Positions 14,180 through 61,190 of a stretch of DNA of 64,000 nucleotides are shown here, piece by piece (within the stretch, counting starts at the first letter, position 1; the number at the start of each line of letters is the position of its first letter). The notes below the pieces were generated by a model. It was not told where the DNA came from. It saw only the letters and a program-made list of their open reading frames with translations, and searched no databases. Both the position numbers and the translations under genes were made by a program. This DNA is from Halorubrum sp. CSM-61 (GTDB lineage: Archaea > Halobacteriota > Halobacteria > Halobacteriales > Haloferacaceae): the NCBI RefSeq assembly GCF_003781945.1, contig NZ_RJJW01000013.1, positions 1-64,000 of the forward strand, given 5' to 3'.

Positions 14180-14747
14180 TACCGTGGGACTCGCAGGCGA
14201 GGTGATTAAAAGACGCGGAGCGATCGCGAATACGTGTGATACAGTTTCGGCCGTTGCGGTGTGGTCGACTCGGTCGACCGTTTATAAGCGGTTGCTGGTA
14301 GATCGACGGTGAACACCTTCAAAGCCCCAGCCGGTCGGCAGTACGTGATCGGCTCCTCCGCGATGACTACCTCCAAAGCCCCAGCCGGGAGGCCGACGTA
14401 CGCTCGCTGTCGTTCGAAAGGCGCGGAGCGCCTTTCGTGATGACGAGAGAGCTTCGCTCTCTCGAACCACGCGCTTCGGTCGCTCGCGGTGCTCGCTCCC
14501 TGCAGTGCTTACGTCGCCTGCGCCGGCCTCCCGGCTGCCCCTTTGAGTCCCACCCGCACCGCACAGCACCTCTCACCTCCCCAGCCTCGTCGGTGGTCCT
14601 CCGCTTCGCTCCGGACCACCGACTCCCTCGCGCGTGCTCCTCGCGGCCTGCCGGCCGCTCGGAGGCACGCGCCACCGCCTCGTTCATTTATAAATAGCCG
14701 TGGCGATCGCTGTCGTCGTTTATAAGCAAAATCCCGCTCGCGCCCGT
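14180..14747. other. Gene-free 568-nt stretch holding repeat copy A
   Basis: No credible protein gene is seen. Translations here are the recurrent pseudo-peptides of the structured repeat. The stretch is occupied by repeat copy A (14281-14696) and several TTTATAA boxes, including CGTTTATAAGC near 14720. Confidence 0.7.
14281..14696 (-). ncRNA. Structured repeat, copy A (putative non-coding RNA)
   Basis: Read on the minus strand it starts at a TATA box (ATTTATAAATG, 14684-14694). A hairpin GTCGGTGGTCC/GGACCACCGAC (14589-14599 with 14613-14623) follows, then the conserved core GAGGCTGGGGAGG and GGGTGGGACTCAAAGGGGCAG. Next is a 12-bp perfect stem (14524-14535 with 14384-14395) and the closing block CGGCTGGGGCTTTGGAGGT. 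The closing block occurs twice here (about 14314-14333 and 14367-14385). Two extra triloop hairpins (GAGAGAGC-GAA and CGAAAGGCGC-TCC) sit inside the apical part. The same architecture with different stem sequences recurs in copies B and D. Confidence 0.7.
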
Positions 14748-37838: not shown

Positions 37839-38165
37839 ATAAATGGCTACCGACGGATCGACGGCGGACACTTCCAAAGCCCCAGTCGTTGAGGCGGGCG
37901 CACGCTCGCTGCGGTCCTCAGTCGGTCGCTACCGCTCCCTCCTTGCGGTCCTTGCGTCCCCTGCGCCCGCCTCAACGACTGCCCCTTTGAGTCCCACCCG
38001 CAACTGCACAGCACCTCACGCCTCCCCAGCCTCGTCGGTCGCCTGCGGCGACCGACTCCCTCGCACCGGCGTCGCCGGCGGCTTCGCCGCCGGCTGCCAG
38101 AGGGACCTTCGGTCCCTCGCGGCTCGCGGCCCAGAGGACCGCTCGCCGGGGCGCGCCATTTATAC
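37839..38165 (-). ncRNA. Structured repeat, copy B (putative non-coding RNA)
   Basis: On the minus strand it begins at a TATA box (GAGTATAAATGG) immediately after the vapC stop codon. A palindromic double-hairpin (38072-38119, shared with the esterase gene) follows, then the GTCGGTCGCC-GCA-GGCGACCGAC hairpin (38034-38056) and the core GAGGCTGGGGAGG / GGGTGGGACTCAAAGGGGCAG. A 17-bp perfect stem follows (37963-37979 with 37885-37901), then the closing block CGACTGGGGCTTTGGAAGTG. The stem sequence differs from those of copies A and D but is fully paired. Confidence 0.7.
38072..38119. repeat. Palindromic double-hairpin unit within copy B
   Basis: The first 29 nt are identical to 3555-3583 in the esterase gene; the second hairpin is AGGGACC-TTC-GGTCCCT, a compensated variant of the one there. 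It adds an extra arm to repeat copy B that copy D lacks. Confidence 0.7.
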
Positions 38166-41734: not shown

Positions 41735-41850
41735 TTACTCGAGGGACTCCGTCCCTCGCTGGACGCGGTGAGCGCTCGGAGAGCGCGAACCGCGAGGCTG
41801 GGGAGGTGTGAGGTGCTGTGCGGAGTGGAACTCAACGCCCACCCGGAAGG
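41735..41850 (+). ncRNA. Structured repeat, copy C (5' part only)
   Basis: On the plus strand it has a GAGGGAC-TCC-GTCCCTC hairpin and an imperfect hairpin CGCGGT...GCGCTC-GGA-GAGCGC...ACCGCG (41764-41794). The conserved core GAGGCTGGGGAGGTGTGAGGTGCTGTGCGG (41793-41822) follows. The sequence then leaves the family consensus, so the large stem and the CTGGGGCTTTG block are missing. Confidence 0.5.
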
Positions 41851-41990
41851 GTTTGAGGCCGAGTTCATGGACAAGCCCCATCACCAGAAGTCTGTGACTT
41901 CTGGTTAGCAGCCAGAACTCGAAGAGTTCTGGCGACACCCTCCACGAGCGAACCCGTCAGGGTGAGCGAAGTAGGGTGGGGTAGTTGATC
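41850..41990 (+). mobile_element. Possible right-end remnant of an IS200/IS605 (IS1341-type) element
   Basis: Two perfect 9-bp hairpins with short loops (CCAGAAGTC-TGT-GACTTCTGG at 41884-41904; CCAGAACTC-GAA-GAGTTCTGG at 41912-41932) are followed by an outer CACCCT/AGGGTG pairing around an ACCC-GTCA-GGGT hairpin. The end reads GTAGGGTGGGGTAGTTGATC. This layout resembles haloarchaeal IS1341-type right ends, where a TnpB guide RNA scaffold would lie. No tnpA or tnpB gene is present. Confidence 0.4.
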
Positions 41991-58199: not shown

Positions 58200-59525
58200 A
58201 TGAACGCGCTTCGCGTGACGGACGGACGGGTGCTCCGGCCCGACGGCCGGGTGACCGAGTCGGACGTGCTGGTCGACCGCGACGCCGGGACGATCGTCGC
58301 GGTGGGGGAGGAGACGGGAGGCGATGAGACGATAAGCAGCGATCCGGCCGACGACGAGACCCTCGACGCCGACGGCGGGCTCGTGATCCCGGGGCTCGTC
58401 AACGCCCACACCCACGTCGCGATGACGCTCCTCCGCGGGTACGCCGACGACAAGCCGCTCGACCCGTGGCTGCGCGAGGACATCTGGCCGGCCGAGGCCG
58501 AGCTCACGCCGGACGACATCGAGGTAGGCGCCGAACTCGGCGTTCTGGAAATGATTCGATCCGGGACGACCGCCTTCGCGGACATGTACTTCGCCATGGA
58601 CCGCGTCGCGGACGTGGTGGATCGGGCGGGAGTGCGGGCGCGACTTGGCCACGGCGTCGTCACCGTTGGCAAAGACGACGCGGACGCGCGCGCCGACGTG
58701 GAGGAGAGCCTGGCGGTCGCCAAGGAACTGGACGGCGCCGCGAACGGTCGGATCCGGACCGCGTTCATGCCCCACTCGCTGACGACGGTGGGCGAGGAGT
58801 ACCTCCGCGAGGGCGTCGCCGAGGCCCGAGAGGCGGACGTTCCGGTCCACCTCCACGCCAACGAGACGACCGACGAGGTCGCCCCGATCGTCGACGAGCG
58901 CGGGGAGCGACCGATCGCGTACGCCGAGGATTTGGGGGCGCTCGGCCCGGACGACTTCTTCGCGCACGGCGTCCACCTCGACGGCTCGGAGATCGACCGG
59001 CTCGCCGACGCCGGGACCGCGATCGTCCACTGCCCGGCCTCGAACATGAAGCTCGCCAGCGGGATGGCCCCGGTCCAGCGCCTCCGCGAGGCGGGCGTGA
59101 CCGTCGCGCTCGGCACCGACGGAGCGGCCTCGAACAACGATCTGGACGTGTTCGACGAGATGCGCGACGCCGCCATGCTCGGGAAGCTCGCCGCGGACGA
59201 CGCGAGCGCGGTCCCCGCCGAAGCCGTCGTGGAGATGGCGACCGCCGGCGGGGCCGACGCCCTCGGCTTCCCCGGCGGCCGGATCGAGCCGGGCGCGGCC
59301 GCCGACTTCGCGGTCGTCGACCTCGACGCCCCCCACCTCACGCCGGTCCACGACCCCGTCTCGCACCTCGCGTACGCGGCGCGGGGGAGCGACGTGCGCC
59401 ACACGGTCTGTGACGGCGAGGTGCTGATGCGCGACCGCGAGGTTCTGACGCTCGACGTCGACGCGGTTCGAGAGCGGGCCGCGGACGCCGCGAGCGACCT
59501 CGTCGACCGGGTTACAGAGTCGTAA
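58200..59525 (+). CDS. Amidohydrolase: SAH/MTA/5'-deoxyadenosine-type deaminase
   Basis: The 441-residue enzyme of the cytosine-deaminase-like superfamily has metal ligands in NAHTHVAMTLLRGYADD, HLHANET (His and Glu), HGVHL, HCPASNMKLASG and LGTDGAASNNDLDVFDEM. The pattern DLDVFDEMRDAAML is typical of MtaD/DadD deaminases acting on S-adenosylhomocysteine, 5'-methylthioadenosine or 5'-deoxyadenosine. It complements AhcY encoded at 38854-40143. The in-frame stop is followed by copy D. Confidence 0.92.
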   Translation: MNALRVTDGRVLRPDGRVTESDVLVDRDAGTIVAVGEETGGDETISSDPADDETLDADGGLVIPGLVNAHTHVAMTLLRGYADDKPLDPWLREDIWPAEAELTPDDIEVGAELGVLEMIRSGTTAFADMYFAMDRVADVVDRAGVRARLGHGVVTVGKDDADARADVEESLAVAKELDGAANGRIRTAFMPHSLTTVGEEYLREGVAEAREADVPVHLHANETTDEVAPIVDERGERPIAYAEDLGALGPDDFFAHGVHLDGSEIDRLADAGTAIVHCPASNMKLASGMAPVQRLREAGVTVALGTDGAASNNDLDVFDEMRDAAMLGKLAADDASAVPAEAVVEMATAGGADALGFPGGRIEPGAAADFAVVDLDAPHLTPVHDPVSHLAYAARGSDVRHTVCDGEVLMRDREVLTLDVDAVRERAADAASDLVDRVTES

Positions 59526-59550: not shown

Positions 59551-59977
59551 ATATCGGGAGTGGGTATTGCAGATCGGTGGCGGCGAGAGAGTATTAAAAC
59601 GACCGAGAGCGACGGCGACGATCGCTTATAAATGACGTGCGGTGGCGCGTGCCTCCGAGCGGCCGACAGGCCGCAAGGAGCACGCGCGAGGGAGCCCGCG
59701 GCCGCGGCGAGGCTGGGGAGGTGTGAGGCGCGGTTGCGGCGTTGTGCGGGTGGGATTCAAAGGGGCAGCCGTGAGGGCGGCGCAGGCGACGCGAGCACCA
59801 CAACGAGGGAGCAACGCGACCGAGTGAGGAGCGCGGCGAGCGTGCGCCGCCCTCACGGCTGGGGCTTTGCAGGTCTTCACCGCAATACCGTCGATCACTT
59901 ATAAACAGCCGCCAGCAACACCACTCGATCGCTTATAAACAACCGATCAACCAATGTGCTATACCCACTCCCGCTAT
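59551..59977. repeat. Imperfect 21-bp inverted repeats bracketing copy D
   Basis: Positions 59551-59571 (core CGGGAGTGGGTAT) and 59957-59977 (core ATACCCACTCCCG) are inverse complements at 19 of 21 positions. They enclose copy D completely, like terminal inverted repeats of a small non-autonomous element, although similar ends were not found around copies A and B. Confidence 0.6.
59620..59940 (+). ncRNA. Structured repeat, copy D (putative non-coding RNA, reference copy)
   Basis: On the plus strand it starts at a TATA box (CGCTTATAAATG). A long first hairpin pairs GCGCGTGC with GCACGCGC, with GCGGCC-GACA-GGCCGC at the tip. A palindrome CCGCGGCCGCGG (59696-59707) precedes GAGGCTGGGGAGG. Then comes GGGTGGGATTCAAAGGGGCAG, followed by a perfect 15-bp stem (59769-59783 with 59844-59858) and CGGCTGGGGCTTTGCAGGT. 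CAAAG-GGG-CAG opposite CTG-GGG-CTTTG extends the stem with a symmetric GGG/GGG internal loop. Confidence 0.75.
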
Positions 59978-60086: not shown

Positions 60087-61190
60087 TCAGAACTCGCGGA
60101 GCGCTTCGAGCACGTCGTGCGCGGAGCCGTCGTCGATGACCTCTCGGGCCGCGTCGAGGCCCGCCTCGATCGAGTCGACGTCTTCGCGGGCGTAGATGCG
60201 GAGCGCGGCGTTGACCGCGACCGCGTCGGCGAAGGGGCCGTCGCGCTCGCCGGTCAGCACCGCCTCGGTGATTTCGGCGGACTCGGCCGCGACGTCGTCG
60301 ACCGCGAGGTCCTCCTCCTCGAGGTCCATGCCGTACTCGGCGGTCTCGATCTCGAAGTCGGTGAAGGAGGCGGCCTCGGATCCCGCCGCGGCGCCGTCCG
60401 CGTCGCCCCCGTCCGCGTCCCACTCGGCGACCTTGGTGTAGCCGGGGCGCACGTCGTCGTACCCCTCCATCCCCTGGAACATCAGGACGCGGTCGAGGTC
60501 GTGGAACTCGCTCTCGACGAACGTGTCGACCACCTTCTTCGCGAACGCGAGGTGGTAGAAGGAGCCGAGGTGGACCGACGCCCCGGCGGGGTTCGCGAGC
60601 GTCTCGATCGTGTTGACGAACGTGCGGACGCCCATCTGGTCGCGGCGGTCGAACAGGTCGTCGATCGCGGGGTTGAACGCGGGCTGGTAGTAGAAGCCGA
60701 AGCCGGTCTCGTCGACCATGTCGGCGGAGTCGGCGGGCGTCAGCTCGGTGTGGACGCCCAGCTCATCGAGGACGTGCTTGTACGCGTCCTGCTTCTGCGT
60801 GGGGACCCGGTCGCCCGAGTGGACCACGACGGGGGTGCCCGCGGCGGCCGCGACGACGCCGGCCGCGACGCCGAGGATCGCGGTCCTGCCCTTCCCGTCG
60901 TAGTTGGCGCCGCAGTCGACGGGGTCGGCGTCGGGCTCGGCGTACTCGACGCGCTCGCACATGGCGTCGACGTACGCGCCGAGCTCCTCGGGCGTGTTCC
61001 GCTTCCAGCGGTTCGCGAGCCAGAACGCCCCGAGCGTGGTCGGGTCGGGCTCGTCCGCGAGGATGCGCTCGAACGCCTCGGTCGCCTGCGCGCGCGTGAG
61101 GTCGTCGGCCGACTTGTGGCCGGAGCCGCAGACCTCGGTCATCAGCCGTTTGAGGGGCCAGTCGCCGAACTCCTGGGTCGCCTGAGCCAT
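60087..61190 (-). CDS. Anthranilate phosphoribosyltransferase-like protein (TrpD2/YbiB-type)
   Basis: The 367-residue glycosyl transferase family 3 protein starts MAQATQEFGDWPLKRLMTEVCGSGHKSADDLTRAQATEAFERILADEPDPTTLGAFWLANRWKRNTPEELGAYVDAM, typical of the TrpD2 subgroup. The glycine-rich substrate loop is replaced by DCGANYDGKGRTAILGVAAGVVAAAAGTPVVVHSGDRVPTQ. TrpD2-like proteins often bind nucleic acids instead of making tryptophan. The region around 270-310 is acidic and low-complexity. The gene is followed by copy D. Confidence 0.87.
   Translation of the reverse strand: MAQATQEFGDWPLKRLMTEVCGSGHKSADDLTRAQATEAFERILADEPDPTTLGAFWLANRWKRNTPEELGAYVDAMCERVEYAEPDADPVDCGANYDGKGRTAILGVAAGVVAAAAGTPVVVHSGDRVPTQKQDAYKHVLDELGVHTELTPADSADMVDETGFGFYYQPAFNPAIDDLFDRRDQMGVRTFVNTIETLANPAGASVHLGSFYHLAFAKKVVDTFVESEFHDLDRVLMFQGMEGYDDVRPGYTKVAEWDADGGDADGAAAGSEAASFTDFEIETAEYGMDLEEEDLAVDDVAAESAEITEAVLTGERDGPFADAVAVNAALRIYAREDVDSIEAGLDAAREVIDDGSAHDVLEALREF

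Follow-up and report, generated by a model that had tools for sequence, protein, structure and literature searches.

The PATEs of Haloquadratum are high-copy, transposase-free, palindromic elements derived from IS605 and are targets of smaller nested repeats (PMC3119063). Streptomyces telomeres form a single-stranded DNA fold of GNA-capped palindromes, with sheared G.A pairs and compensatory changes (PMC7205883). The DNA mini-hairpin d(GCGAAGC) stands out for its extraordinary stability (PMC10527192), and GAA has been called the most stable of known DNA loops (PMC9828363). Here we describe a dispersed folded element from a Halorubrum genome (G000), one copy of which lies at 59551-59977 of the window, meaning the whole stretch of 64,000 nucleotides that we analysed.

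The initial annotation of this DNA had reported a motif, CAAAG-GGG-CAG opposite CTG-GGG-CTTTG, in three copies. Both 11-mers were found exactly, so the motif is real in the window. The 5' 11-mer CAAAGGGGCAG has exactly three matches (59758-59768 on the plus strand, 37979-37989 and 14535-14545 on the minus strand) and the 3' 11-mer CTGGGGCTTTG has four (59859-59869 on the plus strand; 37875-37885, 14374-14384 and 14320-14330 on the minus strand), the last of which belongs to an extra tandem 3' unit of the copy at 14356-14678. The chance expectation is 0.3 for each 11-mer, and the observed counts were reached in none of 100 shuffles. The sequences quoted after the motif (CTTTGCAGG, CTTTGGAAG and CTTTGGAGG) were also correct. 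The interval that had been given for the loop, 59769-59858, is that of the stem it encloses; the motif itself occupies 59758-59768 and 59859-59869. It forms the base of the main hairpin (domain 3) of an intergenic element of about 250 nt with three domains. RNA and DNA folding models both yield the main stem with the 3x3 GGG/GGG loop open between two helices, and both folds were far from those of shuffled sequences (z = -6.6 for the RNA model and -5.9 for the DNA model).

The copy at 59551-59977 contains no ORF and sits in a convergent gap between an amidohydrolase-type gene (58200-59525, plus strand) and a trpD-like gene (60087-61190, minus strand). Three full copies and one fragment are present in the window, with the following features:

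59551-59977, plus strand: whole element; the same arrangement occurs at many sites of the genome.
59551-59578 and 59950-59977: imperfect terminal inverted repeats of about 28 bp (inverted repeat I10, 86% complementary), with the left and right terminal repeats also delimited at 59554-59567 and 59961-59974.
59625-59632, plus strand: TATA-like box CTTATAAA, read from the sequence, preceding the fold.
59639-59887, plus strand: conserved folded core, a full match to covariance model R1 (224 bits, E 1e-50).
59645-59687, plus strand: domain 1, a hairpin with a tandem G.A step; helices 1 and 2 covary.
59690-59710, plus strand: domain 2, a variable hairpin that is short in this copy (alignment A1 and copy comparison).
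59711-59721, plus strand: conserved linker GGCTGGGGAGG, with near-invariant columns.
59748-59754, plus strand: conserved GGGTGGG tract 5' of domain 3, kept across genera.
59758-59869, plus strand: domain 3.
59758-59762, plus strand: CAAAG, 5' strand of outer helix P3a, covarying with CTTTG.
59763-59765, plus strand: 5' GGG of the symmetric internal loop, each position G in 66 of 66 copies.
59766-59778, plus strand: 5' strand of inner helix P3b, starting with CAG (59766-59768).
About 59783-59846 (approximate), plus strand: inner arm, with 2-bp steps between tandem G.A steps and an apical triloop (helices 5-7; loop counts).
59849-59861, plus strand: 3' strand of inner helix P3b, ending in CTG (59859-59861), from covariation.
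59862-59864, plus strand: 3' GGG of the symmetric internal loop, each position G in 66 of 66 copies.
59865-59869, plus strand: CTTTG, 3' strand of outer helix P3a, covarying with CAAAG.
59870-59935, plus strand: 3' unit region with TATA-like boxes; the unit is tandemly repeated in other copies.
14356-14678, minus strand: second full copy (185 bits), with a nested double-hairpin insert in domain 3.
14280-14333, minus strand: extra 3' unit of the second full copy, read from the sequence.
37857-38109, minus strand: third full copy (178 bits).
41735-41863, plus strand: fragment with domain 2 and the linker only, without domain 3 (46 bits and sequence).

A closing stem P1 (GCGGTG/CACCGC) was predicted by folding; its covariation was not seen by eye and the stem is not claimed. 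A small double-hairpin module is inserted in the loops of various copies, in either orientation and with exchangeable stems. It consists of two hairpins separated by a short spacer (for example TGGCAGCC) and followed by GGCGACG, and is similar to small mobile Haloquadratum repeats for which palindromes are the reported targets. The module was seen in the window at 14360-14480 (minus strand) and 41880-41940, and at loci L004, L006, L007, L020, L022 and L038. The 3' unit (CTGGGGCTTTGGAGGTGTTCACCG...TTTATAA, with a period of about 52-57) is repeated in tandem up to about five times, which supplies alternative 3' strands for the base of the stem; examples are G026:C1 221518-, 276591- and 320592-, and L038.

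The fold was recovered from the copies themselves: mutual information across 124 copies returned the helices without a prior structure. In the 66-copy Halorubrum alignment, where the copies are related and the counts therefore not independent, pairing reaches 96.8% of cells and both partners have changed in 31 of 48 pairs; the 376 double-change cells compare with 97.8 after shuffling (none of 500 shuffles as high) and with 22-48 in slid controls. A second alignment of 40 distinct copies from other haloarchaea, which was fitted to the model and so leans towards it, gave 94.8% pairing, double changes in 39 of 48 pairs, and 332 double-change cells against 89. Dense compensatory covariation thus shows a multi-hairpin fold of the plus strand.

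The helices on either side of the loop share in this exchange. All 66 Halorubrum copies have C-G as the outermost pair of P3a, and all 38 copies of other genera have G-C; within Halorubrum, CAAAG/CTTTG alternates with CGAAG/CTTCG, and GAAAG/CTTTC is among the compensated variants across the family. On the inner side, P3b (helix 4) is 98.5% paired with double changes in nine of 13 pairs, and CAG/CTG is replaced by CTG/CAG outside Halorubrum. At L282, a shortened copy, CAACG-GGG-CAG and CTG-GGG-CGTTG enclose a much smaller stem. Because these pairs covary, they are true pairs and not coincidence, and the GGG/GGG feature is, as first proposed, a symmetric internal loop with a genuine helix on each side; both folding models leave it open.

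The loop itself is invariant while the neighbouring pairs are exchanged. All six of its columns are G in 66 of 66 Halorubrum copies, 30 of which come from unselected stretches (the window, 400 kb of G000 and 400 kb of a second Halorubrum species) and are unbiased for the loop; the other 36 came from a pattern search that included the 5' GGG and are unbiased on the 3' side only. Every legible copy from another genus likewise retains both tracts. A search for members in which the GGG tracts are freely substituted returned none among these copies, and the loop proved to be the most conserved feature of the family, both within Halorubrum and across haloarchaeal families, in agreement with the initial annotation. 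The GGGYGGG tract just 5' of the stem is about 90% or more conserved across genera. The exchange of the flanking pairs shows that the loop Gs are conserved for their identity and do not belong to a frozen sequence. It is a reasonable inference from this invariance amid covarying pairs that GGG/GGG is a putative recognition site for a protein or ligand. That the stems vary freely and the loop does not points to one factor in the cell that would read the loop, and six invariant bases inside exchangeable stems offer an experimental handle for finding it.

We evaluated copy number and range with a covariance model built from the 66 copies, whose E-values are rough. The unselected stretches of G000 and of a second Halorubrum (864 kb in total with the window) carry 20-28 copies per 400 kb, or roughly 200 per genome, and the model search found at least 150 full-length copies in G000, all with E 3e-26 or better. 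Every Halorubrum genome tested carries the element. Across Halobacteriales, 183 of 243 genomes, representing 60 of 77 genera, gave model matches, and about 200 other genomes of the phylum gave none; in a phylum-wide sample, 33 of 33 positives were Halobacteriales. Genome searches scored a limited number of candidates; among the matches so listed, eight other genera have 7-98 per genome. The family is haloarchaea-specific, high-copy and dispersed. No match was found in phage records or viral contigs. Some large haloarchaeal plasmids carry copies, mostly without an annotated feature in the plasmid records examined; several carry a domain-3 copy of similar length (L275, L276; plasmid hits H9-H11 and H13), and two of the plasmid copies viewed lie about 0.5 kb upstream of a gene pair for a DNA-binding protein and an endonuclease, the others having mixed neighbours. 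The single-copy genomes G045 and G071 were considered as a clue to host function, as their copies adjoin restriction-type genes; these copies are uninformative because they are near-identical.

With Rfam 15 at the gathering threshold, the window yields only 5S rRNA and tRNAs, and at relaxed thresholds the sub-threshold matches for the 59551-59977 copy and four copies of other genera are chance-like. The family was not found in the literature as far as our searches by topic and sequence string covered it, and the element is apparently undescribed so far. A family present in most haloarchaeal genera, at up to about 200 copies per genome, is therefore absent from Rfam.

The fold is read on one strand. 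Stem cells contain 75 G.U against 24 A.C combinations, and tandem G.A steps between 2-bp steps are kept on the plus strand, where the other strand would have T.C mismatches. The G.U excess and the one-strand G.A steps together indicate that selection sees the folded plus strand, either as RNA or as single-stranded DNA. Some of these stem features, namely the tolerance of G.U and the tandem G.A steps, would suit an RNA as well, as would a U.G pair that is fixed at the base of the stem. Apical loops offer a further view of the molecule. At the tips of domain 3 in Halorubrum, 92 of 121 loops are triloops, of which 57 are GNA; non-GNA triloops (ACC, AAC) are common there. Most of the Halorubrum tetraloops are GNNA whose third base is a pyrimidine, GNRA accounting for only four of about 25 (P about 0.0005 against one half, relatedness ignored), and no UNCG was seen among these tips. 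All 19 tips that were clear in other genera are triloops, 17 of them cGNAg. The caps are thus of DNA type (cGNAg, GNNA) rather than GNRA or UNCG, which is suggestive, the copies being related.

The initial annotation had implied a transcript as the acting molecule, a view that the orientation of copies, the lack of a suitable promoter and the apical loops do not support. The strongest alternative to a DNA reading is a multicopy structured non-coding RNA, in which each copy would be transcribed and the RNA would bind a protein through the GGG/GGG loop. The strand-specific covariation, in which G.U outnumbers A.C threefold, an RNA fold far better than that of shuffles and a TATA-like box upstream of the fold in 28 of 39 Halorubrum copies all speak for it. 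The box, however, lies only 10-20 nt before the fold. Archaeal transcription starts about 25 nt downstream of the box. A box-driven transcript would therefore begin inside domain 1 and lack the 5' strand of that domain. The copies viewed in other genera, including those with domain 3 only, have no TATA-like box, which tells against a transcript. Divergent inverted pairs of domain-3-only copies, separated by 10-26 nt, occur in several genera (L210, L218, L226 and L227), and this spacing leaves no room for two promoters; full-length copies were also seen paired tail to tail, as large palindromes (L213 and L215). Copies in tandem-gene gaps are divided evenly, 25 sense and 25 antisense, by our own, crude gene calls. 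With GNRA and UNCG loops nearly absent and no Rfam family to which the copies belong, we consider this RNA explanation less likely than DNA, though a serious rival. Orientation and placement, the position of the box, the apical loops and the many G000 copies inside terminal inverted repeats favour DNA, and we would give even odds that, going by these sequence features, the acting molecule is folded single-stranded DNA.

Different Halorubrum species have copies at corresponding sites, and these same-site copies are 65-88% identical (for example, G000:C11:343138 and G026:C1:233180); most loci were chosen for carrying a copy, which biases the shared-site proportion upwards. Same-site copies are no more alike than random ones (78.1% against 78.6% identity), which suggests conversion among dispersed copies; either recombinational homogenisation or saturation under structural constraint may have produced the pattern. 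Empty sites were found (L201 compared with L053, and L135 with G026), and by this comparison the inserted DNA seems to include the TATA-like boxes and 3' units. The empty sites are too diverged for exact boundaries, and target-site duplication was not evident by eye. Terminal inverted repeats flank about half of the copies in the examined G000 stretch and occur in some relatives; they are mostly absent in the second Halorubrum (G026) and in other genera. At L300 (G000:C16:62292), an apparent insertion sequence interrupts the linker after the GGCT of GGCTGGGGAGG.

The terminal repeats of many G000 copies, together with the nested insertions and tandem 3' units, are what would be expected of inert transposon debris, that is, MITEs whose stems seem conserved through arm copying or because the copies are young. 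Same-site copies have nevertheless diverged and stayed paired, with 121 paired cells changed on both sides against 37 expected; arm copying would erase the strand-specific G.A steps and the GGG/GGG loop, and most occurrences of the fold in the second species lack terminal repeats. We regard debris as an unlikely explanation. A 3'-end or terminator-type element in the transcripts of neighbouring genes, like REP in mRNA ends, would account for the placement of copies by our own gene calls (64 of 138, or 46%, in convergent gaps against 15% of gaps, a threefold enrichment; depletion in divergent gaps; and, with these crude calls, none inside genes) and is very improbable given the even sense and antisense split despite a strand-specific fold and the many copies that do lie in divergent gaps.

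Our main reading, to which we assign a probability of roughly 0.5, is that of a non-autonomous dispersed element that is vertically inherited and works as folded single-stranded DNA with a GGG/GGG recognition core. The loop would be the recognition core for one putative trans-acting haloarchaeal factor, with the Gs being read and the helices serving only as a scaffold. The folded molecule would more likely be transient single-stranded DNA, as in replication, repair or strand-transfer intermediates, than a transcript. The element would spread rarely as DNA and pass vertically, its copies being homogenised by recombination. More tentatively, haloarchaeal chromosomes may carry, at up to about 200 sites per genome, a type of functional single-stranded DNA fold that has so far gone undescribed, combining DNA-type hairpin caps, stacked tandem sheared G.A pairs and an invariant G-rich core. 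The GGG/GGG loop, perhaps as a K+-stabilised quadruplex together with the GGGYGGG tract, would be read by a putative haloarchaea-specific factor in replication, recombination or strand-transfer mobility. If it does act as single-stranded DNA, it would be a rare archaeal chromosomal case of long-term selection on folded single-stranded DNA, besides transposon ends.

Several known identities were considered and rejected. The fold was at the ends of none of 41 tnpB or Y1 loci in four carrier genomes (41 IS605-type loci, 30 PF07282 and 11 PF01797), which have two distant full copies and otherwise weak fragments only; because of this absence, we do not file the element as an IS605 end, a PATE or a TnpB guide RNA. 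The sole Y1 gene of G000 (C20:106562) lies about 1 kb from tnpB (C20:105465), so the genome has no stand-alone Y1 transposase and the element is not a RAYT-linked REP. Retro-mobilised RNA (group II intron, retron or SINE-like) was rejected, as RVT_1 is absent in five carrier genomes in which controls were positive.

The element nevertheless resembles several described systems. Like PATEs, it is high-copy, transposase-free, palindromic and targeted by nested repeats; unlike those IS605-derived elements, it does not have its fold at the ends of IS605-type loci. Like MITEs, the 59551-59977 copy has imperfect terminal inverted repeats and no ORF, whereas most copies of the second Halorubrum and of other genera are without such ends, and neither a parent transposon nor a mobilising enzyme was identified. 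It shares with the Streptomyces telomere folds (PMC7205883) GNA-capped palindromes, sheared G.A pairing and compensatory changes; those folds lie at chromosome ends, whereas the haloarchaeal copies are at dispersed internal sites, and we claim no sequence relation. Overall, the element appears to behave as a REP-type dispersed folded element, with membership in a named family not established. It differs from bacterial REP/REPIN in being a haloarchaeal element of 115-250 nt with multiple domains, dense covariation, an invariant GGG/GGG core and no solitary RAYT. Like them, it is present as hundreds of folded copies that lie between genes, pass vertically, are enriched in convergent gaps and in some cases form inverted pairs.
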